The position numbers were made by a program, and so were the translations under genes. Below, one piece after another: positions 1 to 11,412 of a DNA stretch of 11,412 nt. This DNA comes from Candidatus Lindowiibacteriota bacterium. GTDB lineage: Bacteria; Lindowbacteria; 2-12-FULL-62-27. The notes under the pieces were generated by a model. That model was given only the letters and a program-made list of their open reading frames with translations, had not been told where the DNA came from and did not search any database. Location of the stretch: positions 1 through 11,412 of the forward strand of contig JAHFCY010000095.1 in assembly GCA_023249255.1 (NCBI GenBank), given 5' to 3'. Position 1 is the stretch's first letter, and each line of letters starts with the position of its first letter.

Positions 1-878
1 AACTCCATGCATAAATTCGACACAAACGCCGGAATGTCCGACGATCGCATTGCCAGCCGGTGATCCGCAACCGATCCGGTGATCGAGTACGCGCTTTCGA
101 CGACGTAGAGACGATTCATCTCGTCGCTCACCGACTGCACCGTCCGGTGCGCGGAATATTCCTTCGCCGCGCGGACGTGGTTCGGTTCCAACCCGAGAAA
201 ATCCGAGTCGACCGACAACACAATATCGGCCTTCGAATAATCCGGATGCGTGCGGACCGCCCGGCCGAACGCGATTCGCGATCCTTCCAGGACATTTTCA
301 TCGTCAATCGGCGCATGGACATACCAGCGAGCGGCCGGATAGATCGCCGTTATCTGCGCGCGAATATCGGCCAGCAATGGAGATGGATCTTCCGCGAGGA
401 GAAACGCGAGACCCGCGCCGTGATTCAACTGCCACGCCGCCGCCAATGCCGCCTGATATTGGGTGAATGCCGTCCAAGTCGACGGCGCATGTGCCGGCGC
501 GCCCGACGCGAGCGTCATCGGCGTTGTGCTCCGGTCGGGATCGTAGAGGTCGAGGACCGACGCCTGCGCGAATCCGTCCGTTGCGCCGAGGCTGTACGGG
601 TGCAGGGTACTACCCTCGATTTTGGTCGGCCGGCCTTCGTGGGATTCGACGAGAACTCCGAAGACGTCCTTGTCCATGCGGTAAGTCGACGAATAGAACA
701 AGGGTTTACCCGGCACGAGATGTTCCGGCATCTGGCTGTAGGGAATGATGTGATCCTCGGGTCGGCGAATCGCGCCGCATCCGCCAAGACCGACCAGCGC
801 CATCGACGCGGACATCATCTTCAGAAATCCGCGCCGGTTCAGAGCGTCGCGTTTATCCCTGCGTTCTATCGATGACAT
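1..878 (-). CDS. actB: ActB-like alternative complex III iron-sulfur/molybdopterin-like subunit (5' part, truncated by window edge)
   Basis: The frame is open from an ATG at 878 to the left edge, giving about 292 N-terminal residues. ActB is the large periplasmic subunit of alternative complex III (ACIII), a quinol:acceptor oxidoreductase. It descends from molybdopterin and Fe-S subunits of the DMSO reductase family but is not catalytic at Mo. Visible signs are an N-terminal Tat motif (NRRGFLKMM, residues ~14-22), then a hydrophobic stretch ending in LGGC, a possible lipobox. These are followed by ActB-typical stretches: RRPEDHIIPY, a VPGKPLFYSS segment, VLVESHEGRPTKIEG, and an FAQASVLDLYDPDRS segment. 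The start overlaps the ActA stop by 13 nt, which implies translational coupling. The leader before the Tat motif is short; many ActB proteins have a longer N-terminal extension. The C-terminal Fe-S cluster region lies outside the window. Family call is strong; completeness of the gene is unknown. Confidence 0.88.
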   Translation of the reverse strand, partial: MSSIERRDKRDALNRRGFLKMMSASMALVGLGGCGAIRRPEDHIIPYSQMPEHLVPGKPLFYSSTYRMDKDVFGVLVESHEGRPTKIEGSTLHPYSLGATDGFAQASVLDLYDPDRSTTPMTLASGAPAHAPSTWTAFTQYQAALAAAWQLNHGAGLAFLLAEDPSPLLADIRAQITAIYPAARWYVHAPIDDENVLEGSRIAFGRAVRTHPDYSKADIVLSVDSDFLGLEPNHVRAAKEYSAHRTVQSVSDEMNRLYVVESAYSITGSVADHRLAMRSSDIPAFVSNLCME

Positions 879-1522
879 CCCGAACAGTCCACCTTTGGAG
901 GATTCAGTTGAGTGCGAGTGCCGGACCAGATCACCTTGTGGCCGACCGCACGCGGCGATTCCCACGAAACCGTCGATGTAAACTGTTTCGTGACTTTCTG
1001 CTTGTCGAGATTGCGATGACAATTCAAACACCAGCCCATGCTCATCGGGGCGACCACGCGCATCCGGTCCATCGACGCGACGTCGCCGTGACACGCGGCG
1101 CATTCCAACCCCGCGCGAACGTGAGGCTGATGGGAGAAATAGGCAAAATCGGGAAGACGGTGAACGCGGGTCCACTGGAATGGAACGTTGGCCGACCATT
1201 GGCCGGTGACCTGTCGGATCGTCGGCGTGTCCCAACGGACAAACCGGTGACAGTTCATGCACGTCTCCGTTGCCGGGACGCCGGCCACGCTCGACCGTTC
1301 GACATTGCTGTGGCAGTACCGGCAATCGAGGCCGAGATTGCCCGCGTGAACTTTGTGGCTGAACGGATTTGGCTGGGCCGGTTCGTATCCGGATTCGATA
1401 AAGTCGGGCGCGGCGAGGAAATAAAACGCGCTGACGACTCCGACAAACCCCAGTACTCCCAACGTGATCAGAAATTTGGGGATCCGGTTCGTCCATTTTG
1501 GAAAAATAAAATCATTTCCCAC
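866..1522 (-). CDS. actA: ActA-like pentaheme cytochrome c, alternative complex III subunit
   Basis: This 218-aa protein has a single N-terminal transmembrane helix (about residues 15-37) and a periplasmic domain with five CxxCH heme c motifs: CRYCH (67-71), CMNCH (88-92), CAACH (141-145), CLNCH (165-169) and CSGCH (213-217). Histidines such as those in FSHKVH (55-59) and FSHQPH (129-134) are positioned to be distal ligands. Size, heme count and the PMSMGWCLNCHR and NPPKVDCSGCHR segments match ActA of ACIII, where the hemes pass electrons between the quinol-linked core and soluble carriers. The start is GTG at 1522, chosen because the following FPKWTNRIPKF is the family's usual N-terminus; a GGAGGG lies 12 nt upstream, a long spacing. 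It sits 50 nt after the cupredoxin and overlaps actB. Very sure of family; actC-F are not in view. Confidence 0.92.
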   Translation of the reverse strand: MGNDFIFPKWTNRIPKFLITLGVLGFVGVVSAFYFLAAPDFIESGYEPAQPNPFSHKVHAGNLGLDCRYCHSNVERSSVAGVPATETCMNCHRFVRWDTPTIRQVTGQWSANVPFQWTRVHRLPDFAYFSHQPHVRAGLECAACHGDVASMDRMRVVAPMSMGWCLNCHRNLDKQKVTKQFTSTVSWESPRAVGHKVIWSGTRTQLNPPKVDCSGCHR

Positions 1523-1572
1523 GCGCGGCCATTCCCTCCGCTGGATTGTTCAGCCCGTCCCGAATCGGCCTC

Positions 1573-2196
1573 TTACTTCGCTTCCTCTTTTTTGGGCTTC
1601 ACGATCGACACGGCCGCCGCCTTGCCGGATTCCACCGCGACCGGGGTCGCCAGGTCAAAATCTTTCTTCTTCAGCCCTTCGCCCCAGATTTTCAGAGAGT
1701 ATTTTCCGGCCGGGACATTCGTGATCGTAAACGCGCCGTCGCCGTCCTTCTTCACGGACGCCCAGAACGGATTCTGCAGGACAACGACATACGCGCACAT
1801 CTCGGGATGGACGTTGCAAAGCTGGGTGTAGACGCCGGTCTTGCCGAATACGTGTTTCACGGCGACCCCTTTGGGCCGCACACCGAGGTCGTAACCTTCG
1901 TTGTCGGGAGAATTGACATTATGATTAACGTCGTCCGAATTTTTGTAGATGATCGTCGAACCGACGACGATCGGCGTGATTCTCGGAATGAAGGTCAGTT
2001 TCATCTGGTCGATCTCCGCGTCCTTCGTCGGGAACGCGCCGTCGACTTTGTCGATATAGACCAGGACGTCGCTCCGCTTCAAAAATTTCGGATCCACCGA
2101 CCCGCTGATGCTCCCCGTCTTGCCCGCGGCAATCGCCGCGATCGCCAGCCCCAGCGTCAGCGTCAGCGCCAGCGCAAATCCGATGATTTGTTTCAT
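1573..2196 (-). CDS. Secreted cupredoxin (plastocyanin-like) with C-terminal carboxypeptidase-regulatory-like domain
   Basis: This 207-aa protein starts with a Sec signal peptide (residues 1-24, ending AIAAG). The central domain (about 30-145) is cupredoxin-like, with candidate type 1 copper ligands H92 (in VNHNVNS), C127, H130 and M133 (CNVHPEM). The C-terminal part (about 150-200) has the DGAFTITNVPAGKYSLKIW signature of small beta-sandwich carboxypeptidase-regulatory-like domains. Similar proteins are often annotated 'methylamine utilization protein' or 'plastocyanin', with no proven role. It lies between the molybdoenzyme genes and actA, so I infer a periplasmic electron shuttle between the two complexes. 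A strong AAGGAGG ribosome site precedes the ATG. The loop C-x2-H-x2-M is shorter than plastocyanin's C-x2-H-x4-M, and a second Cys (134) follows the Met. Copper binding is well supported; partner identity is inference. Confidence 0.82.
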   Translation of the reverse strand: MKQIIGFALALTLTLGLAIAAIAAGKTGSISGSVDPKFLKRSDVLVYIDKVDGAFPTKDAEIDQMKLTFIPRITPIVVGSTIIYKNSDDVNHNVNSPDNEGYDLGVRPKGVAVKHVFGKTGVYTQLCNVHPEMCAYVVVLQNPFWASVKKDGDGAFTITNVPAGKYSLKIWGEGLKKKDFDLATPVAVESGKAAAVSIVKPKKEEAK

Positions 2197-2206
2197 TTTA
2201 TTTTAT

Positions 2207-2213
2207 CCTCCTT
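2207..2213 (-). promoter_or_regulatory. Ribosome binding site of the cupredoxin gene
   Basis: A full AAGGAGG match to the anti-Shine-Dalgarno sequence lies 10 nt before the ATG at 2196, followed by an A/T-only spacer (ATAAAATAAA). It is the strongest such site in the operon and suggests the copper protein is made in larger amounts than its neighbours, which fits a mobile carrier. Confidence 0.7.
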
Positions 2214-2240
2214 CGTCATGAGCCTCCGCCCGTGCAGTCT

Positions 2241-2945
2241 TTACGGCTCGATCGATATCTCTTCTTCCACCGGAATTTCTCCCGCGCATCCGCCGCAGGC
2301 GAATGCCGTTCCCTCGGCGTCCGTGACAGCCGCAACAGGGTCTCCGGCGATTTCCACAACCGGCACTTCACTTTTGACAAGTTCCACCAGAAGTTCTCCC
2401 GCAAGATCGTAACCCGAGCCTGCGGCGCGCTGTTTGAGAGAATCGGCGATCGCCGTCACCCAAAGAGCGAGGTGGTCGGAGAGGAACATCACGCGGGCGC
2501 CGCTCACGACATCCGCCGTGTCGGTATCGCCCGAAGCCAGCGCGTGCGCTTCCTTCGCGAACATGAACGACACAAATTGCAGTTCCACCGCGATATGGTC
2601 CGGCTTCTCGCCGGTTCCCGATTCGAAGGGATAGCCGAACGCGCGATAAAATCCGGCGAGATCCGCAAGGACCGCGCCCGCCGGCGTCTTGGGCCGATAA
2701 CCGATTTCTCCGTCCTGACACACTCCCGTGCCGCCGAGAATCTCACTGTAAGAAACCCGATCGGAATTGATCGCGTATCGGACGGCGCGGAATTCGGCTC
2801 GACGGTTGATCGGGACTTCATCGATCACCGTCTCGAGCCACCGCCGGTCCACATCGGCGGGTCGGCGGAAAAAAGCCGAAATCGAGGCAAACGCCGCGCT
2901 TTTCGAAAAAAGATTCGTCAGAATCGCTCGGTCGGTTTCCATCAT
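2241..2945 (-). CDS. TorD/DmsD-family molybdoenzyme maturation chaperone
   Basis: This 234-aa cytoplasmic protein is expected to bind the catalytic subunit while cofactor is inserted and before Tat export. It appears mostly helical. It contains the family-typical segment around KPDHIAVELQFVSFMFAKE and a later helix with FLSDHLALWVTAIADSL, where TorD/DmsD/NarJ proteins carry their conserved hydrophobic core. The C-terminus has a small ACGGCAG cysteine pair and an acidic tail (PVEEEISIEP). I chose ATG at 2945, whose ATGA overlaps the gamma-subunit stop by 4 nt. A longer in-frame extension to 3041 reads through the end of the gamma gene, is rich in Arg and is unlikely. Position directly after the gamma gene is the same as for the delta/chaperone genes of ethylbenzene dehydrogenase, selenate and chlorate reductase operons. 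I do not assign a specific symbol. Confidence 0.85.
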   Translation of the reverse strand: MMETDRAILTNLFSKSAAFASISAFFRRPADVDRRWLETVIDEVPINRRAEFRAVRYAINSDRVSYSEILGGTGVCQDGEIGYRPKTPAGAVLADLAGFYRAFGYPFESGTGEKPDHIAVELQFVSFMFAKEAHALASGDTDTADVVSGARVMFLSDHLALWVTAIADSLKQRAAGSGYDLAGELLVELVKSEVPVVEIAGDPVAAVTDAEGTAFACGGCAGEIPVEEEISIEP

Positions 2946-3838
2946 GGCGCGATCTTCACCTGCACCCATCCGTCGACGACCATCTTGCGCGGACCCGCAT
3001 TCTGTTTCGCGCCGTCCCAAGCCGCGAACGCGACGGGCCACGTCGAATTTTCCTCGAGGCGCGCATCCTCCTCGTCAGCCGTCACCATCGGCCGCGCGAT
3101 AATCACCCGCCACCGGCCGTTCTTCCACGCGCCGTATCCCCGCGCGTCCTGCTCCTTCTGAACCGTCAGCCGGACCCACGACCGGGCCGAAAGTTCCTCG
3201 ACCACCGGCGCGATGCCGATCACGTCGGGATTTCCGGCGGCGCGGGACGCTAGATATTTTTCCCTCTCGGTCTTCGCCGCCTGCGTGACCTTGGCGCCCA
3301 CGGCCTTGGGATCGAACGTGTAAGCGTCCGACCAGGCGTTCGGGTAATTCTCATCGTGAAACGAGACGCCGCTGTCCAGCCGCGCGCGCTGTCGTTCGGC
3401 GCGCCACAACATGAGACATACCGGCTTGTCGTCGTTGCCCATCCGGTAATCGGGCATCGTGTCGGTCGCGAGAGGGAATTCGACCGCCACGCCATCCGCA
3501 AATTTTTCGGATCGGAGTCCATCATCTTTCGTCGCGTCGGCCCACTCGATCAGAAACGCCATGATCCCCCGGCCGTGCACAGACCGGACGGTCAGCGCCG
3601 CGATGCCGGTGTCCTGGATTTTCGGTTCCTGCACGTTCTGCCGGGCCAGCCCGAGTGTCACCGGCGCGGCATCCTTCCAGCACGCCTGGTCCGGGTTCGT
3701 GATGTCGATACGGTCCGCGCATGATTTCGATTCAATGACGATGGGCAGAATTTTCGAGCCATCATCCGTTTCCGCAAAACATACCTGCGTCAAACACACC
3801 GCGACCAGCGCGGCTGATATTCCGATTCCGTTTTTCAT
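2942..3838 (-). CDS. Heme b gamma subunit, ethylbenzene-dehydrogenase type (DMSO reductase type II complex)
   Basis: This 298-aa protein has a Sec signal peptide (residues 1-22, cleavage after FA before ETDD), then a beta-rich domain of the type found in EbdC, DdhC, SerC, ClrC and NXR gamma subunits. In that family a single heme b is held by a Met and a Lys, and carries electrons between the beta-subunit clusters and a soluble periplasmic partner. Visible family signs are YRMGNDDKPVCLMLW (131-145), where M133 is the best candidate ligand, and GYGAWKNGRWRVIIARPM (234-251); K228 and K239 are candidates for the Lys ligand. There is no transmembrane anchor, so the complex should be soluble or attached through a partner. 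The start overlaps the beta-subunit stop by 4 nt (ATGA). The presence of this subunit rather than a NarI-type membrane cytochrome b puts the enzyme in the periplasm. Confidence 0.87.
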   Translation of the reverse strand: MKNGIGISAALVAVCLTQVCFAETDDGSKILPIVIESKSCADRIDITNPDQACWKDAAPVTLGLARQNVQEPKIQDTGIAALTVRSVHGRGIMAFLIEWADATKDDGLRSEKFADGVAVEFPLATDTMPDYRMGNDDKPVCLMLWRAERQRARLDSGVSFHDENYPNAWSDAYTFDPKAVGAKVTQAAKTEREKYLASRAAGNPDVIGIAPVVEELSARSWVRLTVQKEQDARGYGAWKNGRWRVIIARPMVTADEEDARLEENSTWPVAFAAWDGAKQNAGPRKMVVDGWVQVKIAP

Positions 3839-4965
3839 GGCGTGTTGTGCCGGTAGACTTCCCGGGCCTCGTCGAAATACGGCCGGATGTAGACGGGCTC
3901 CTTGATCGGCGCCCGCGCCACTTCCGCGCCTTTCTCGTCGAAGCCGAGCGTCATCCCGTCCCGCGCGGCGAATGTGTGGATCGTCCGTTCCGACGCGCCG
4001 AACAAAAGGAGCGCCGCTAGAAGTTCCGGGTCATCCTTCGCCGTCCGATAAACCTCGATGGCCTTGTCGACGCCGGGCCCGAACATCATGTGCATGAACT
4101 TGCGCGACACATGAAGCGGCGGGATGTAGTAGACGTTCGGCTCAAGCCCGAACTGCGGGTAGAGCGGCAGGGCGATCTTGCGGATGTGGACGAGGTAATC
4201 CATCGGGTTGTCCGCACGCGCATTTTCTGGCGTGTTGATGAATCCCTGCATCCGGATTTTGCCGATGCAGGACGTCACGCATTGCGGCTGACGGCCCGAC
4301 TCGATTTTGGGATAACAGCCGATACATTTCTCCGAGACGCCGGCCACGTCGTTGAAAAAAGTTTTTTTGTAGGGACATCCGCGGATGCACTCGCGATGTC
4401 CACGGCAGTTTTTCTGATCGATGAGAACGATGCCGTCTTCCGGACGCTTGTAGATCGCCCCGCGCGGGCAGGAGGCCAGGCACGACGGGTACGTGCAGTG
4501 ATTGCAGATGCGCGCGAGATAAAACATCCACTGTTCCTGAAGCCCCTTGATGTGCATGCCGCTGTTGATCGGCGCCGAGATCTCATCCTCCCCGAGATTC
4601 GGATGCGAATAGTCTTCGTCTTCCGGACGGAATCCCAGCACTCGCTCGCCGGCGGGCGCCGACTCGAATATCGTCTTGCCCTCGTACTCGTCCTCGCCCC
4701 ACGACTGCGCGCCGAGCATATCGAGCAGTCGGACGTCCCACGCTGTCGGATAAAAACCGAATGGTTTCGTCTCGACGTTGTTCCACAACATCGCGTCCTG
4801 ACCCTTGCCGCTGGTCCACGTCGTTTTGCACGCGAGCGTGCAAGTCTGACACGCGATGCACTTGTTGATATCGAAGATGTAGGCGATCTGGCGTTTCGGC
4901 CGCGCCTCGTTGTACCAGTAATCCATTTTCCGGTTGATCTGCCAGTTGAAAACTTGATGCGCCAT
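3835..4965 (-). CDS. nxrB-like: Fe-S beta subunit (NxrB/NarH-like) of periplasmic DMSO reductase type II molybdoenzyme
   Basis: This 376-aa subunit carries four ferredoxin-type clusters linking the Mo subunit to the gamma heme. The cysteine sets are: C36-x2-C39-x2-C42-x3-C46; C154-x2-C157-x4-C162-x3-C166; C187-x2-H190-x2-C193-x3-C197; and C214-x2-C217-x11-C229-x3-C233. Spacing agrees with E. coli NarH. The third set has His where NarH has the Trp that makes it a [3Fe-4S] cluster, so a 3Fe cluster is expected here too. NHCTYPSCLASCPRGAIYKRP and the C-terminal LPLYPQFGLEPNVYYIPP and FGPGVDKAIE segments resemble NxrB of Nitrospira and anammox bacteria, although that protein is longer (about 400-430 aa). 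It has no signal peptide, so it must be co-exported with the alpha subunit through Tat. A GGGAGG ribosome site is 4 nt before the ATG. Substrate cannot be set from this subunit. Confidence 0.93.
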   Translation of the reverse strand: MAHQVFNWQINRKMDYWYNEARPKRQIAYIFDINKCIACQTCTLACKTTWTSGKGQDAMLWNNVETKPFGFYPTAWDVRLLDMLGAQSWGEDEYEGKTIFESAPAGERVLGFRPEDEDYSHPNLGEDEISAPINSGMHIKGLQEQWMFYLARICNHCTYPSCLASCPRGAIYKRPEDGIVLIDQKNCRGHRECIRGCPYKKTFFNDVAGVSEKCIGCYPKIESGRQPQCVTSCIGKIRMQGFINTPENARADNPMDYLVHIRKIALPLYPQFGLEPNVYYIPPLHVSRKFMHMMFGPGVDKAIEVYRTAKDDPELLAALLLFGASERTIHTFAARDGMTLGFDEKGAEVARAPIKEPVYIRPYFDEAREVYRHNTP

Positions 4966-4969
4966 GTCG

Positions 4970-4975
4970 CCTCCC
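4970..4975 (-). promoter_or_regulatory. Ribosome binding site of the beta subunit
   Basis: GGGAGG lies in the 10-nt gap between the alpha-subunit stop and the beta ATG at 4965, with a 4-nt spacer. It fixes the beta start. Confidence 0.65.
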
Positions 4976-7900
4976 TCAACTTTCCGCTTCGATGTATTCG
5001 CCGACCATGAACCGTTTCATCATGTCGGACTCATAAGTGGGCCGGATGCCCAACTGTGCGGGCCGCCACAATCCCTTGCCGCCAAGGCCGCCCGGTTCCG
5101 CCTTCGTGATCTTCACAAATGACTCGCGAGGCGCGCCGGTCGGACAATGCACGTCCGGCTCGAATCCCTTGTTGATGGTCTGACCCATCGTGTCCTTGCG
5201 GACGAGCGTGTCGGTGACGAGCGTCGGTTTGATCCACGCTCTCGATCCGCTCTGGTGACTGCCGGATCGGAACATCGCCTGATAGTTGGTCTCCGGATTT
5301 TTCGCGAGTCCGTCCGGCCGCGTCTCCTGGCCCTTCACGCTTCCGGGCGTCGCGCCGTACATGTTGTACCAGGACCGCGTGACGCCTTTCGGCGTGCCGT
5401 TGTAATACCGCGCCCGGCACATCAGCCGCGCGACCTTGTAGGCCGCGTCGCCCTTTTTCCACCCGCGGTACGGGCGGTCTTCCGGGTCGGCGTCGATCCA
5501 GACGTAATCGCCATCCTCGATGCCGAGCGACTTCGCGTCCGACGGATTGATGTCGACGTATCCTTCGGTGACGAATGGCTGACGCTTGTCGCGCCGGTAC
5601 CAATCGCCGAACGGCCCGAACAAAACGGCGACGATGTCGGTATCCACCGGAGTCGTGTGCGCGCCGTGCCGGTATTTCGGCGTGTGATAAATGAACCGGT
5701 ATCCGTCTTTCATCAGCGGATGTTTCGTGTTTTTCACCTCGGACCATGGCTTGATCACATGCCGGACCTGCCGCGCCTCCGACGAAAGATCGCTCTCCTT
5801 CATCCCGTACTCGGCCGGGGTCGTCGGTTTCAGAACCGCGTCGCCTTTCGACACGATCACGTTGGGTTCGTAAAACGTCGAGTCGATCGGCTCGCGATAC
5901 AAAGGAATGTTTTCACCGCTCGCCCGGAATTCAATTTCTTCCCTGTAGAATTCCAGCCGGCCGGTTTTCGTGTACTGCGGCTTGTCCTCCGTCGCCTGTT
6001 CCCATCCCACGGTGCGGGGATAGGTGCGGTTGAGCATCAGCGCCGGGATGCCGTCTTTCGCGCGTTCGTGAATCTCTTCGAAACTATAACCCTTCGTACA
6101 CGCGCTCGCGTTCAGAATGCGCTGGAGATAAACATCGACCCGGCTGTCGTGGACGAATTTCCAGTGGTCGACAAACCGCGTCTCGCCTGTGATCTTCGCC
6201 AGCGCTTTGGCGACGCCCGCGTAGACTTCGATGTCCGCCCGCGTGTCAAGGATCCGGGCAAGCGGCGTAACCGGGAACACGGTCAGGAACGGATTCGTCA
6301 CCGACGCGCACATGTCCGGATGTTTGAATTCAGCCCACGAGTCGACGCCGAACACAATGTCGGCGTATTCGCAGGTCGCCGTCCAGGACCAGTCATTCAC
6401 GAAAACCGCTTCGACTTTCGGCAGAGTGTTGTTCACGACGTCGTAATGCCACTTGGTGTTGCCGAGAATGGAATTGCCGTTGGCCCACCAACAGCTTTTG
6501 GTCGGCGTCGGCATCTGGGTCTTGCCCGTCAGATTGTTTTTGCCCGCCTTGAGCGGCCGGTCGCCGTAATTGAAGTAATGCGCCGATTCGTATTTCAAAA
6601 ACTTTTTCGGGCGCGGCGGTTTGGCCGCGTCAAGTTCGAGATCGAACGGATTTTCGAGGACGTAGGACGGCACGCCGTTGAAGAGCGCCGTGCGATAGTT
6701 TCCGGCGTAACTGCCGACGTTCCCCGAGACCGTCCCGATATTTCCGGTGAGCGATCCCACGAGGAGAATCGCGCGGTCTTTGAGGTCATTGTTGAAAAAC
6801 TGGTTCGGGCCCATGCCGCAGGCGATCAGGGTGGTTCCGCGCGCCTCGGCGATCTGCCGGGCGAGCGACAAAATTCCTTCTTTCGGCGCCCACGTGATCT
6901 CGCTCGTCGTGTCGAGATCGTGGTTCGCGTTGATGTGGCGCTTGATGAGTTCGAACACGGGCGCGACTTTCACCGTTTTGCCGTCTTTCAGTGTGACGTC
7001 ATGTTCTCCCTCGAGGACCGCCTTTCCGGTAAATCCCTTGCCGATCATGTTGCGCGAAACCGCCGCGGGTTTCTGCGACGACTCGTCCAGATAAACGAAA
7101 TCGCCCCACTCGGCCCGCAGAGCTTCCGGAACGACCTGCTTGCCCTGTTTGCCCGGAGGGATCGGCTTATCCCCGGTTTTGAAAACGCCCGCGTAGTTCG
7201 TCAACTCCGCGTTCGTATAATCCGCGAACACGTCGGATGCGCGAAGCATCTCCCGGGTGTCGAGCCTTACGAGAAATGGAAGATCCGTCTTCGTGCTGAC
7301 GTGGTCGGCGTCGTAGAGTTTTTCGTTGATGATGACGCCCGCGACTCCCAGCGCAAGCGCCGGCGACGTCCCCGGCCGCACAACGAGGGCTTCGTCGGCC
7401 TTGCAAGTGCTCGACTGATACTCGCACGCGACGACAAACACTTTCGTGCCCTTCATCCGCGCTTCCGTCAGCCAGTGGCTGTCCGGCATCTTGGTCGAGA
7501 TCCAGTTCATGCCCCAGAGCACCGTGAGTTTCGCGTGTTCCACCGCGAACAGATCCCACTCGATCGTCTGCTGGCCCGTCACCATCGGGTGTCCCGGCGG
7601 AAGATCGGTATGCCAGGTGTAACTGTCCCAGTGGCGCGCCGCGATCGCGTGGTCCGCGTCGACTTTGCGGATCTGCGAATCGAGCAACGCGAGGCTGTTG
7701 GCGTAGCGGGCCATGCCCATCACGCGGACCTGTCCGAGAAGCGGCATACCGCCGCGGAATTTCATCGCCTGCGTGCCGGCGCCGTGCATCGTCTCGATCA
7801 TTTCTTCGTCATAGCCTTGTTCTTTGAGAAGTTTGGCGCCCGCCTCGCCCGAGTAGGTCGTGGCGATATTGATATGCGCCTTCGCCGCAAGTTCAAACGC

Positions 7901-8467
7901 CTCGTCCCATGTCACCTTGATCCACGAATCTTTCGCCCGCTGGAACAATTCCACCGGCGGCCGGCCGTCGCTCCCGCGCGGAAATCCGCGATCCACCCAC
8001 TCTTTGAATCCTTTGCGCACCATCGGCCCGCGCACACGCCGATCGCTGTAAAGCCGGCGCACCAGACCCAACCCCTTCTGACAGCACCGCGGGTCCCACC
8101 GGCTCGACGCGCGGTTGCCGTAAATGTCGGTCGCACTGCCGTACCCGTACGTCGGCTCGATGCGCACGACAACGCCGTTTTTGACAAACGCGCGAAGAAT
8201 GCAGTTGTGAGTGTCGTTCGGCGCACAGAGGAATGTAAACGAAGAATCATACCGGAAGAGATCGCGGTAAACTTTTTCCCAATCGCGATCGGCGTGTTTT
8301 TCAAGAGGATTATCAAGCCCAAGTCCGTAGGCGGGAGTCAACCAAGAAGTCAAAGGTCCGGAAGCCAACGCTGTGAATCCAAGTCCGCCTGCAAGAGTTA
8401 AGAATTGTCTACGGTTGATTCCTTTCGCCAACTTGATCATGTCTTTCCCGTTCGAATGTTCTTCCAT
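4976..8467 (-). CDS. nxrA-like: Molybdopterin catalytic alpha subunit, periplasmic nitrite oxidoreductase/nitrate reductase-like (DMSO reductase type II)
   Basis: This 1163-aa protein would hold Mo-bis-MGD and the FS0 cluster, catalysing an oxygen-atom transfer (nitrite/nitrate most likely by family). N-terminal [11 protein letters not shown] (twin Arg at 19-20) followed by a hydrophobic stretch is a Tat signal, so it acts in the periplasm. FS0 region: C81, D85, C89 and C128/C129. Candidate Mo ligand: D288 in [18 protein letters not shown], aligning with NarG Asp222. The C-terminal region ([41 protein letters not shown]) resembles NxrA of Nitrospira/anammox type. Length also fits NxrA (about 1150) better than the 900-980 aa of selenate, chlorate or ethylbenzene enzymes. 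I chose ATG at 8467 because GGAGG sits 5 nt upstream; an in-frame GTG at 8479 overlaps this site. It is first in the operon. Family certain; direction and substrate (nitrite, nitrate, chlorate) unproven. Confidence 0.93.
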
Positions 8468-8472
8468 ATCGA

Positions 8473-8477
8473 CCTCC
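8473..8477 (-). promoter_or_regulatory. Ribosome binding site of the alpha subunit (decides start)
   Basis: GGAGG lies 5 nt before the ATG at 8467. It overlaps the alternative in-frame GTG at 8479, which would have no such site of its own, so the ATG is preferred. Confidence 0.65.
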
Positions 8478-8519
8478 ACAACGTATTAGACGGGTGCATA
8501 GGCGCTCCCCAGACAGGTG

Positions 8520-8531
8520 TATATATATATA
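8520..8531. repeat. (TA)6 dinucleotide tract
   Basis: Twelve bases of perfect TA repeat lie between the alpha-subunit start and the candidate -35 box, in an otherwise high-GC window. A tract like this can change length by slippage, and here a change would alter promoter spacing. Confidence 0.8.
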
Positions 8532-8553
8532 GGTAAGCAAAAAACGCACTCAA
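8524..8553 (-). promoter_or_regulatory. Probable sigma70-like promoter of the molybdoenzyme/ACIII operon
   Basis: On the minus strand TTGAGT (8553-8548, four of six bases match TTGACA) is followed after 16 nt by TATATA (8531-8526), or after 18 nt by the next register of the same TA tract. This would give a leader of roughly 50 nt before the alpha-subunit ATG. No clear FNR (TTGAT-N4-ATCAA) palindrome was seen beside it. Both boxes are imperfect, and the TA tract makes any -10 match easy, so this is only a candidate. Confidence 0.4.
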
Positions 8554-8854
8554 TAGGCCTGATACAACCCACCCCGTACGGAGGATTTGTCATAACAGTC
8601 TGTAAATGTGGATATTAATAATCCGGTTGATTTCTCGGATGTATCCTATTTGATAAGAAAAGAATCCTTGAACCGCATCTCGTTCCAGCGCAACCTGCAT
8701 TAAATCGGTACATATCTTGTCTTGGAGGGTACGCCCGCCACCCGATGTGTCTGTTTTTGAAAGTTTAGCCGTCAGCGCCAAAATCCAATGCATAATCCAA
8801 TGCATTGACCTGACCCCCTTGAATCACAGTCTGGATTGCCGTATCATTGAGGCG
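8554..8854. other. AT-richer intergenic stretch with no convincing gene
   Basis: This 300-bp stretch between the two divergent blocks is visibly richer in A and T than its surroundings. A 71-codon minus-strand frame (8590-8805) runs through it but has no ribosome site and no recognisable domain. Its minus-strand upstream end carries the 12-bp tandem repeat and a GGGGTCAGGTCA-like sequence (8808-8817 region) of the kind often seen flanking IS200/RAYT-type or MITE elements. I read it as non-coding, possibly a decayed mobile-element remnant, also carrying the 5' signals of the plus-strand toxin-antitoxin pair. The mobile-element reading is inference from memory of similar ends. Confidence 0.4.
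8782..8805. repeat. Perfect 12-bp tandem duplication (AATCCAATGCAT x2)
   Basis: Two adjacent identical copies of AATCCAATGCAT occupy 8782-8793 and 8794-8805. The second copy merges into a 10-bp palindrome CAATGCATTG (8798-8807), directly followed by ACCTGACCCC. The combination of palindrome, tandem copy and TGACCTGACCCC looks like the terminus of a small mobile element. Confidence 0.75.
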
Positions 8855-9061
8855 ATGAACAGCGAATGCATCCAGTCGAGTCTGGACATTTTGAGCGGGA
8901 CGCCGGTGTTCAGGGGGACGCGGGTTCCGGTGCAGACCCTGATCGATTATCTTGAAGGCGGAGATTCCATCGACGTTTTTCCGGGAGATTTTCCGACCGG
9001 GACGCGTCCGCAGATCATCGCGGTTCTCGAATCGGCCAGGGCCAAACTCCTTTCCGCCTGA
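8855..9061 (+). CDS. DUF433 family antitoxin-like protein
   Basis: This 68-aa protein shows the DUF433 core: GTPVFRGTRVPVQTLIDYLE followed by an FPTGTRPQIIAVLESARAKL-type ending, a small winged-helix-like DNA-binding fold. Members are usually the antitoxin partner of an adjacent DUF5615 PIN-like protein and are presumed to autorepress the pair. The ATG at 8855 is chosen because the domain begins soon after it, with a weak GAGG just upstream. The open frame continues to 8717, but those residues have no family resemblance. A proline (DVFPGDF) interrupts what is normally a helical position. The stop is 7 nt before the toxin start, so the two form one operon. Confidence 0.8.
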   Translation: MNSECIQSSLDILSGTPVFRGTRVPVQTLIDYLEGGDSIDVFPGDFPTGTRPQIIAVLESARAKLLSA

Positions 9062-9068
9062 ATTCCTG

Positions 9069-9389
9069 TTGAAAATCCTCCTTGACGAATGCCTGCCCAA
9101 ACGTCCGGCCCGCGACATGCACGGCCACGAAGTCAAAACAGTTCAGGACATGGGCTGGTCGGAACTTTCCAACGGCGAACTTCTCTCCAGGATAGAGAGC
9201 CATTTCGAGATGTTTATCACCGTTGATCAAAATATCACCTTTCAACAAAATCTGACAGGGCTGAAATTCGGCGTCATCGTCATAGCCACCAAGAGCAACC
9301 GATACGACGATATAACCCCGCTGGTCTGCGATCTCGCGGCGTCTTTGAAAAATATTCAACCCGGTCAAATCAAAACAGTCGGCATATGA
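9069..9389 (+). CDS. DUF5615 PIN-like domain protein (putative toxin of a toxin-antitoxin pair)
   Basis: This 106-aa protein begins MKILLDECLP and continues with GHEVKTVQDMGWS, NGELL and FITVDQNITFQQNL, the standard pattern of DUF5615 (a PIN/Mut7-C-like ribonuclease-type fold). Acidic residues D6, E37 and D53 are candidates for metal binding. The start is a TTG at 9069, inferred because KILLDE is the normal N-terminus. No ATG is available close by, and the next upstream ATG in frame lies inside the antitoxin gene. It follows the DUF433 gene by 7 nt. RNase activity is a family-level expectation; DUF5615 proteins are rarely tested. Family sure, toxin role moderately sure. Confidence 0.78.
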   Translation: MKILLDECLPKRPARDMHGHEVKTVQDMGWSELSNGELLSRIESHFEMFITVDQNITFQQNLTGLKFGVIVIATKSNRYDDITPLVCDLAASLKNIQPGQIKTVGI

Positions 9390-9451
9390 TGGCGTCTTTT
9401 ATTCGGCGATTGGGGTCAATGGGCGCCGATCGCGGCCATCTCGCACGTCGG

Positions 9452-10240
9452 ATGAGAAAAAAATCATTCTGCGGCCTGTTTTTCCTTGCCGTGTGGATGC
9501 TGTTTCCCGGAATCCTCCCGGCCGCGGAATTGGACAAGGCGGAAATGGTCGATATCCTCAAGGGCATCGATGTGCGGGTCAAAAGCTCGGGAGACTACAA
9601 GGCCCTAGTCTACATCGAACAGCGCGAGAAGGACAAACCGGATGTGGCGCGCGAAGCTCTCGTCTACCGCAGGGACGATGACCAGAAGCTCATGATCCTT
9701 TTTACCAAACCCAATACCGAGGCGGGCAAGGGTTACCTGCGGGTGGACCGGAATCTCTGGTACTACGATCCGAACGTCGGCAAGTGGGAAAGGCGCACGG
9801 ACCGGGAGCGCATCGCGGGCACGGATTCCCGGCGTCAGGATTTCGACCAGTCGGACCTCGCGGGCGAGTACGACCCGGTCTTCGTGGCCGAGGAGAAGCT
9901 GGGAAATTTCGGCGTCTGGCATCTGAAACTGACCGGCAAACCGGGCAAGGACCTGGCCTACCCCATCGTGGAATTCTGGGTGGACAGACAAACGGGCAAC
10001 GACCTGAAGCGGCAGGATTTCGCCCTGTCGGGAAGGCTGATGCGTACCAGCTACTCTCCCAAGTGGCGGAAACTTTACAGCGAGAGCAAAAAGGCCGACC
10101 TCTGGTATCGCCATGAGATACGGATCTTCGACGAAATCGACAAGGCCAATTCCACCCTGATCATCATCCAGTCGGTCGATCTACAGCCCCTGCCGGAGAA
10201 TATCTTCACGAAGGCCTGGTTGGAAACGAAGAGCAAATAG
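9452..10240 (+). CDS. Outer membrane lipoprotein-sorting protein (LolA-like fold)
   Basis: From ATG at 9452 this is a 262-aa protein. MRKKSFCGLFFLAVWMLFPGILPAAE is a clear Sec signal peptide with cleavage near AA-E. The mature part has the LolA-like 'outer membrane lipoprotein-sorting protein' pattern: DILKGIDVRVKSSGDYKALV near the N-terminus, then KGYLRVDRNLWYYDPNVGKW, RRQDFDQSDLAGEYDP and the PIVEFWVDRQTGNDLKR strand. Such proteins fold as a half-barrel that carries a lipid-like molecule across the periplasm, and often sit next to RND/MMPL or ABC exporters. The frame extends upstream to an ATG at 9386 overlapping the toxin stop, but those 22 residues are Arg-rich and would spoil the signal peptide; no start has a good ribosome site. 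It is followed 12 nt later by a beta-barrel gene. Confidence 0.78.
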   Translation: MRKKSFCGLFFLAVWMLFPGILPAAELDKAEMVDILKGIDVRVKSSGDYKALVYIEQREKDKPDVAREALVYRRDDDQKLMILFTKPNTEAGKGYLRVDRNLWYYDPNVGKWERRTDRERIAGTDSRRQDFDQSDLAGEYDPVFVAEEKLGNFGVWHLKLTGKPGKDLAYPIVEFWVDRQTGNDLKRQDFALSGRLMRTSYSPKWRKLYSESKKADLWYRHEIRIFDEIDKANSTLIIIQSVDLQPLPENIFTKAWLETKSK

Positions 10241-10252
10241 ATTGCCACCATT

Positions 10253-11412
10253 GTGAAACGCATACTTCTTCTAACCGCCCTGCTGTTGAATTCCGCCGTC
10301 CTTGTTCAGGGAGCGGAACGGGCATCCGAAGCCGACATGTTCGGCGACACCACATCCCTTGCGGCGCCGGATACCTCATTCCCCCAGCCTGATCAACGCG
10401 AAAAAATACTTCAGATCGGCGGCAACTTTTCCGCCCAGGGGGACTTTTTTTTGCGGGACGACTTCCCCCTGAAGGACACAGCCGTTTCCAACCCCAACAT
10501 TCTTTTTCTGTACATCGACTCGAAGTTTAAGCGGGACGCCCGTTTCTTCTCCCGCATCAGGGCCTTCTACGACCCCACCGGAACGTCGGGCGGGGGCGGC
10601 GGGGACATTTCGAACCCCTACGGGTCCGGAGGCCGAAAAAACGTGAGGGTGAGCCTGCATGAACTGAAGTACTCGGCCAACATCGACCGGAAGATATTCC
10701 TCACCGTCGGCCGGCAGAAAGTGAAATACGGTGCGGCAAAATTTTTCAATCCCACGGACTTCCTCAATTCCCAGCCCTTGAATTTTTTCCTGCCCTCGGA
10801 CGAACGGTCTGGCGTGGACATGGTCAAGGCGCATATCCCCTCCGGCGCCGCCAATTTCTACGCCGCCAGAATGGTGCGTCATCATGGCGCGGGGAACCAG
10901 AGCGGCAGTTATCTGCGGGAAGAGATCGGTTATGACGGCGGCGGGGATTTTCTGGGAAGCGGCGAGATATCGCTTTCCGGGTTCTTCCCGAGGGACCAAC
11001 CGGCCCGAGCGGGTTTCGACATTTCCCAAGCCGTGGGCGATTTTGACGTTTATGTCGAGGGGGCAACAGGCCGCAATTCCGCCGGCCGGTGGACGAGCGC
11101 ATACAGTTGGGGCGCCGGCCGGCAAATACGCTACGCCGACCGGGCGAGCAACATTCTCACCCTGCACGGAGAATTTTTCTACGCCAGGGCCGTGGCCGAA
11201 TATGGAATCCTTTCGGTTTCCCTGCCCGAACCCGGAAGCTTGAAGGACGTCGCCTTCGCGAACACCAATCTTTACAGTTTCCTGGACAAGAGCGGCCTAT
11301 CCCGCATGGACATGACCTACACCATCACTCCCCGCATCAACGGAATGGTCTACGCCGCCATCCACTGGGGACACCGGGGCGGGGGCTTTCATCGTCCCGG
11401 CCAGGTGGCCGA
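10253..11412 (+). CDS. Outer-membrane beta-barrel protein, porin-like (5' part, truncated by window edge)
   Basis: A GTG start at 10253, 12 nt after the LolA-like gene, opens a frame that runs to the right edge (386 codons visible). The first 20 residues (MKRILLLTALLLNSAVLVQG, then AE) form a signal peptide. The mature part shows alternating hydrophobic/polar strands, aromatic girdle residues and glycine-rich turns. It contains FLTVGRQKVKYGAAKFFNPTDFLN, a motif shared with DUF1302-like and other outer-membrane proteins that accompany LolA-like and RND/MMPL genes. It is not assigned to a substrate. I infer it is the outer-membrane partner of the preceding protein in an export or lipid-trafficking operon whose inner-membrane pump lies outside the window. 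No ribosome site is evident before the GTG. Confidence 0.72.
   Translation, partial: MKRILLLTALLLNSAVLVQGAERASEADMFGDTTSLAAPDTSFPQPDQREKILQIGGNFSAQGDFFLRDDFPLKDTAVSNPNILFLYIDSKFKRDARFFSRIRAFYDPTGTSGGGGGDISNPYGSGGRKNVRVSLHELKYSANIDRKIFLTVGRQKVKYGAAKFFNPTDFLNSQPLNFFLPSDERSGVDMVKAHIPSGAANFYAARMVRHHGAGNQSGSYLREEIGYDGGGDFLGSGEISLSGFFPRDQPARAGFDISQAVGDFDVYVEGATGRNSAGRWTSAYSWGAGRQIRYADRASNILTLHGEFFYARAVAEYGILSVSLPEPGSLKDVAFANTNLYSFLDKSGLSRMDMTYTITPRINGMVYAAIHWGHRGGGFHRPGQVA

Follow-up and report, generated by a model that had tools for sequence, protein, structure and literature searches.

The stretch of DNA analyzed here (the window, 11,412 bp) is the entire contig C365 of the source genome, assembly G000, which spans 3.35 Mb and is 89% complete. 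The preliminary description had claimed seven genes on one strand, and all seven are found on the minus strand at the positions it gave:

Alpha, 4976..8467, minus strand: TAT-type Mo-bisMGD catalytic subunit of type II DMSO reductase kind, NXR-like; start at ATG 8467 preferred, GTG 8479 possible.
Beta, 3835..4965, minus strand: Fe-S subunit with four clusters, lacking the insertions seen in betas of the NXR clade.
Gamma, 2942..3838, minus strand: EB_dh-type heme b subunit, with Met133 and Lys285 as putative ligands.
Chaperone, 2241..2945, minus strand: TorD/NarJ-type, for alpha; ATG at 2945.
Cupredoxin, 1573..2196, minus strand: type 1 copper protein (H92/C127/H130/M133) with a C-terminal CarboxypepD_reg/fn3-like domain.
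ActA, 866..1522, minus strand: pentaheme cytochrome c of alternative complex III (ACIII).
ActB, N-terminal ~292 residues, 3..878, minus strand: probable remainder on contig C217 (L099:14-2158).

Recomputed intervals also agree with the spacing claimed there, overlaps of 4-13 nt and gaps of 10-50 nt: alpha and beta are 10 nt apart, beta overlaps gamma and gamma overlaps the chaperone by 4 nt each, the cupredoxin is separated from the chaperone by 44 nt and from ActA by 50 nt, and ActA overlaps ActB by 13 nt. Judged from this spacing, the seven genes are probably co-transcribed as one operon. The ATG at 8467 is favored over the GTG at 8479 as the start of alpha because GGAGG lies just 5′ of it. 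Promoter and terminator scans of the window gave signals near chance, and a search of the window for RNA families returned no match. Divergent from alpha on the plus strand is a DUF433 and DUF5615-like gene pair with a toxin-antitoxin-type look (8717-9389); a LolA-like outer-membrane lipoprotein-sorting gene and then a long open frame with no Pfam match, running off the contig, occupy positions 9386-11410 of the same strand.

Catalytic and iron-sulfur subunits

The best PDB match of alpha is Kuenenia NxrA at 43% identity, and identities to NXR-clade genes range from 41 to 44%. The FS0 site, C-x2-ND-x3-C, aligns with Kuenenia positions 67/70/71/75 and so presents three Cys and one Asp, and alpha also keeps the active-site Asn and the Mo-ligating Asp (Asp275, conserved) described for the Kuenenia enzyme (PMC8387239). 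In a 26-row alpha tree (a 52-row tree was also made), the clade that holds the window's enzyme (100/100; the window clade) is separate from an NXR clade (100/100) that includes Kuenenia, rows from a Nitrospinota-looking phylum, the first enzyme of NC10 CSP1-5, and a second enzyme of the source genome itself, encoded on contig C299. The Mo loop reads WHGDQAPGH in every NXR-clade row of the alpha alignment, whereas alpha and the window clade have WHTDLPPGH with few exceptions (DLAPG in L143); the DLPP loop also occurs in E. coli NarZ and haloarchaeal relatives. Beta carries a Cys in the cluster IV site. The alpha tree, the DLPP loop, and a beta without insertions together rule out membership in the Nitrospina/anammox NXR clade. 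The label "NXR-type" given to alpha earlier thus holds for architecture, by the Asp-ligated FS0 and the resemblance to Kuenenia, and fails for clade membership.

Alpha takes a sister-like position to the NXR clade in a tree that contains no Nitrotoga or Hydrogenobacter sequences. One study groups Nitrotoga NxrA with periplasmic nitrate reductases in a clade sister to the NXRs and reports that its beta lacks an insertion (PMC6050957). The Nitrotoga NXR and Hydrogenobacter NAR of that study, described there as sister to the NXR clade, have in common with the window the alpha-beta-gamma-chaperone operon and the beta without an insertion. These features and the cluster IV Cys fit the published description, although they are not unique to that clade, and the window clade, likened to it by description only, may be the same group. 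Close kinship with a haloarchaeal NarG-type plasmid enzyme is unsupported, the Halobaculum alpha being 29% identical, and a 49.5% match in Natronococcus belongs to another protein, which is frameshifted and branches basally in the window clade. On Natronococcus occultus plasmid 2 (L103, NC_019976.1), at ~7842-11392, an unannotated window-clade alpha gene is split by a frameshift and followed by beta and a chaperone.

Gamma and the cupredoxin

Gamma has the EB_dh heme-b domain; its candidate Met/Lys heme ligands, Met133 and Lys285, are invariant across eight homologues. The Kuenenia NXR (7b04, PMC8387239) is alike in being a soluble alpha-beta-gamma enzyme with an Asp-ligated FS0 and a Met/Lys heme b, and is bidirectional, but differs in its separate alpha clade, DQAP Mo loop, and longer beta. 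The cupredoxin has a type 1 copper His-Cys-His-Met site on a cupredoxin fold; its model is confident (pLDDT 86), with the NirK cupredoxin domain, purple cupredoxin, and amicyanin as nearest folds. Related copies lie 5′ of alpha at the loci of the two nearest alphas, L003 (genome SKYG70) and L004. The cupredoxin is a candidate electron link between ACIII and gamma.

Alternative complex III and the contig join

ActA contains five CxxCH motifs, and the top matches of ActA, ActB, and ActC are solved ACIII complexes (four complexes for ActA and ActB). ActB is incomplete in the window because the window is a whole contig whose end cuts the gene. A search of the genome found two complementary pieces of ActB, which align to CSP1-5 ActB at ~6-265 (window) and ~354-986 (start of contig C217); the remaining matches in the genome are short Fe-S-domain matches, and a second ActB was not found among them. 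The C217 open frame begins 5′ of its aligned part, and the two pieces sum to ~1,000 residues, compared with 990 in CSP1-5. Since the ActB halves are complementary, C365 and C217 probably adjoin, a join made with no shared terminal bases, as a search for terminal overlap between the two contigs found none. The order on C217 is the ActB C-terminus, ActC, ActD (PF11821), ActE (a monoheme c), ActF, another c-type cytochrome, a diheme c, cbb3-type oxidase subunit I, and a P-type ATPase. Across the two contigs the ACIII set is complete, with pentaheme ActA, the pseudo-Mo and Fe-S fusion ActB, NrfD-like ActC, ActD, ActE, and ActF. It had been suggested that actCDEF and a terminal oxidase might follow to the left of the window, and both are present beyond the probable join.

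The genome has one ActB and one ActC-type NrfD only. A Qrc complex can be set aside, since the QrcA, QrcB, and QrcC models score below their curated cut-offs (83.7/180, 34.2/440, and 190.7/400 bits), ActD and ActE are present, and ActA-C match solved ACIII first. The ACIII of the window is predicted to oxidize quinol.

Other respiratory genes of the genome

A true Kuenenia-type NXR operon is present in the same genome on contig C299 (L002, 1-5232), with the start of beta, alpha, a 323-aa protein, and the end of gamma; the 323-aa protein also precedes the NXR of CSP1-5. Six genomes contain a window-clade alpha and a second alpha besides: in G000, G120, G156, G195, and G213 the second one belongs to the NXR clade, in G042 to the neighboring L144/L145 lineage. 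The genome further encodes three bc-type cytochrome b genes and oxidase genes, including the cbb3-type one on C217, and alongside these the "dedicated" circuit proposed previously stays tentative. RuBisCO and nirK had no match in the 89%-complete assembly.

Gene neighborhoods of related enzymes

A scan of GTDB contigs yielded 309 relatives; the analysis used the 80 best, which come from Acidobacteriota, Planctomycetota, Myxococcota, and further phyla. Among these best 80 of 309, beta and gamma lie 3′ of alpha in all 61 loci with 5 kb of downstream sequence, and the chaperone in 59. The 58 loci of the same set with 5.5 kb upstream have a cytochrome b just before alpha in 51 cases and a Rieske protein also in 51; 50 of the loci have an FAD/NAD(P)-type Fe-S protein there, and 39 a multiheme c. 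At L004 no bc module adjoins alpha, and in SKYG70, the genome of L003, contig ends cut off the region in which ACIII genes could follow. The window and NC10 CSP1-5 have, in place of Rieske/cytochrome b, an ACIII operon located 3′ of the chaperone. Among the other Methylomirabilota contexts retrieved, several of them short, none has ACIII beside a window-type alpha. The respiratory half looks exchangeable because related enzymes in many phyla adjoin an ordinary cytochrome bc complex and that of the window adjoins ACIII; the arrangement looks like a core of alpha, beta, gamma, and chaperone to which interchangeable complex-III cassettes are attached. In the upstream set of relatives (e.g., L105:16235-18184) a GltD-like FAD/NAD(P) Fe-S oxidoreductase accompanies the Rieske, cytochrome b, and multiheme c genes; its presence is a hint that the chemistry may be linked to NAD(P) or bifurcating, and an Rrf2-type regulator adjoins it in L105.

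The recurrence of the gene order, put forward earlier as a check, is seen in CSP1-5, where contig LDXR01000015 has a window-clade alpha-beta-gamma-chaperone followed by ActA-F on the same strand, again in a genome with a true NXR. The CSP1-5 cluster differs in that the NXR itself and an upstream caa3-type oxidase belong to it and no cupredoxin lies between the chaperone and ActA. Its alpha and ActC fall on other branches as well: the two alphas are not sisters in the 26-row tree, and in a small tree a split with 100/99 support separates the ActCs. ACIII was therefore probably recruited separately in the window and CSP1-5, and shared inheritance of the link is unsupported by the alpha and ActC trees. 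The whole CSP1-5 cluster (L046, L157, L158) comprises the caa3-type oxidase, an Rrf2-type regulator, the NXR, the window-type enzyme, and ActA-F, followed by MauG-like cytochromes. The published account of CSP1-5 describes two nar operons, assigns one to the group of nitrate reducers and the other to NXR, and leaves ACIII unmentioned (PMC6094997).

The earlier statement that NXR-type enzymes and ACIII usually occupy separate loci is too strong in view of CSP1-5, of 13 clusters of Nar with ACIII-like genes (PMC10732223), and of two single-contig genomes, G303 and G310 (L193/L194 and L195), in which a true NXR alpha with the DQAP loop is divergent from a complete ActA-F set ~230 bp away. The 13 Planctomycetota instances resemble the window in having nar genes upstream of five-heme c, ActB, NrfD, ActD, c, and second quinone subunit genes, but most are described as Nar-type, and no cupredoxin is mentioned; the authors suggested a nitrite reductase for the six-gene set without naming ACIII, which by composition it is (PMC10732223). 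Haloarchaeal Nar (e.g., Halomicrobium urmianum, L123) likewise joins an outward-type molybdoenzyme and an EB_dh gamma to an adjoining complex-III-like quinol module, but there the module is bc-type, the FS0 His-type, and the alpha distant.

Discussion

Read directly from the DNA are which genes are present and in what order, the ligands of the cofactors, the identity of ACIII, and the fact that the partner module differs from lineage to lineage. Beyond these, we propose that the enzyme is a nitrate reductase of the NXR-like branch of type II DMSO reductases, that it faces outward and is probably reversible, and that the same operon supplies its quinol-side electron source, ACIII acting via the cupredoxin; to this proposal we give an even chance. 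Quinol would be oxidized by ACIII (ActC with ActA, ActB, and ActE), electrons would pass from ACIII to the periplasmic cupredoxin and on to the heme b of gamma, and from there the Fe-S chain of beta and the Asp-ligated FS0 would carry them to the Mo site, where nitrate would be reduced to nitrite. ACIII would thereby stand in for the Rieske/cytochrome b and multiheme c of most relatives, and for NarI or NapC elsewhere, and the enzyme is probably reversible, as is Kuenenia NXR. By established potentials, the electron order from quinol to nitrate is energetically downhill.

Direction (reduction) and substrate (nitrate) are the parts of this proposal that sequence comparison suggests rather than fixes. 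The balance tilts to reduction because the genome has a true NXR elsewhere and the Mo loop of alpha resembles that of nitrate reductases. A complex-III-type module beside the same core in 51 of the 58 relatives, and ACIII beside it in the window and CSP1-5, also favor the proposal, as do the published grouping of the CSP1-5 homologue with nitrate reducers (PMC6094997), the full ACIII set behind the enzyme across C365 and C217, and the type 1 copper protein of the operon with its related copies 5′ of alpha at L003 and L004. Precedents for the carrier come from Chloroflexus and Caldithrix. ACIII of Chloroflexus has a type 1 copper protein, auracyanin, as electron acceptor, but the two serve the photosynthetic reaction center as well as respiration and their genes lie apart (PMC3150298). 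A path from quinol through ACIII and plastocyanin to periplasmic nitrate/nitrite reduction was proposed for Caldithrix abyssi, differing from the window in that the enzyme is NapA-type, the genes are not in one operon, and the path is a proposal only (PMC5317091). Counting against the proposal are the Asp-type FS0 common to NXR, the cbb3-type oxidase on the ACIII contig, the absence of a cupredoxin beside the CSP1-5 ACIII, a contig join that is probable rather than proven, the operation of Kuenenia NXR in both directions (PMC8387239), and the inclusion of the nitrite oxidizer Nitrotoga in the sister clade that may hold the window alpha (PMC6050957). Of the earlier interpretation of this DNA, the further ACIII genes with an oxidase and the recurring order survive; "NXR-type" holds for architecture only, the usual separation of the two loci is too strongly put, and the dedicated circuit stays a tentative proposal. 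A more specific form, in which the operon serves dedicated periplasmic nitrate respiration, with ACIII as quinol dehydrogenase, a two-domain blue-copper link to the NXR-like reductase, and a donor half that is an exchangeable bc/ACIII cassette replacing NarI/NapC, is put forward tentatively and is somewhat unlikely.

The opposite direction, in which alpha-beta-gamma would oxidize nitrite to nitrate, the cupredoxin would deliver electrons to a heme-copper oxidase, and ACIII would run in reverse or for other donors as a link to the quinone pool, appears unlikely without being negligible. It draws on the similarity to Kuenenia NxrA, including the 3Cys/1Asp FS0, on the oxidase genes of the genome with the cbb3-type one on C217, and on Nitrotoga, a proven nitrite oxidizer that has ACIII and an alpha-beta-gamma-chaperone operon and whose NxrA is sister to the NXRs of Nitrospira, Nitrospina, and anammox bacteria (PMC6050957). 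ACIII is documented in nitrite oxidizers (PMC12342949, PMC11009272, PMC6050957), and its position beside a true NXR in G303 and G310 means that ACIII linkage alone is no proof of reduction. However, alpha lies outside the Nitrospina/anammox clade and has the DLPP loop, beta lacks the clade's insertions, the genome encodes a separate true NXR, and neither RuBisCO nor nirK was matched, in an incomplete assembly and with carbon fixation judged by RuBisCO alone.

Less probable still is a general respiratory cluster in which ACIII and the cupredoxin would mainly serve oxidases and the molybdoenzyme would be co-encoded without a circuit of its own. An oxygen reductase often follows ACIII (PMC12342949), as the cbb3-type oxidase does on C217, and a single ActB and a single ActC-type NrfD mean that ACIII may serve the whole cell; set against this, the same enzyme core is linked repeatedly, and probably separately, to complex-III modules, the genes are tightly spaced with overlaps, and the three bc-type cytochrome b genes could serve the oxidases. 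A substrate other than nitrate or nitrite (chlorate, perchlorate, selenate, or iodate) is very doubtful: reductases of perchlorate, chlorate, and selenate do occur among the type II relatives, and chlorate and perchlorate are further substrates of haloarchaeal NarGH (PMC8301774), but in comparison with alpha the score of perchlorate reductase is far lower than that of NXR, and no chlorite dismutase gene lies beside alpha in the window, unlike at the plasmid locus L122.

Nar-ACIII clusters and electron flow from ACIII through plastocyanin to nitrate are already published. The strongest new point comes from the comparison of relatives, in which the core is conserved and its complex-III cassette can be exchanged; least secure are the join of the two contigs, the cupredoxin as link, and the direction. 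In the open-access literature searched, neither the swap of bc for ACIII next to enzymes of this clade nor the placement of the cupredoxin was found described.

Surveys in which similarity decides that such alphas oxidize nitrite stand to gain: here a true NXR co-occurs, the Mo loop differs, and a quinol module is present. For soluble, outward-facing NXR/NAR-like enzymes, whose electron link has been missing, the operon offers a concrete candidate, and the comparative data point to that link as a complex-III cassette that differs in type from one lineage to another. If the proposed circuit is true, ACIII would be a quinol dehydrogenase for nitrate respiration.
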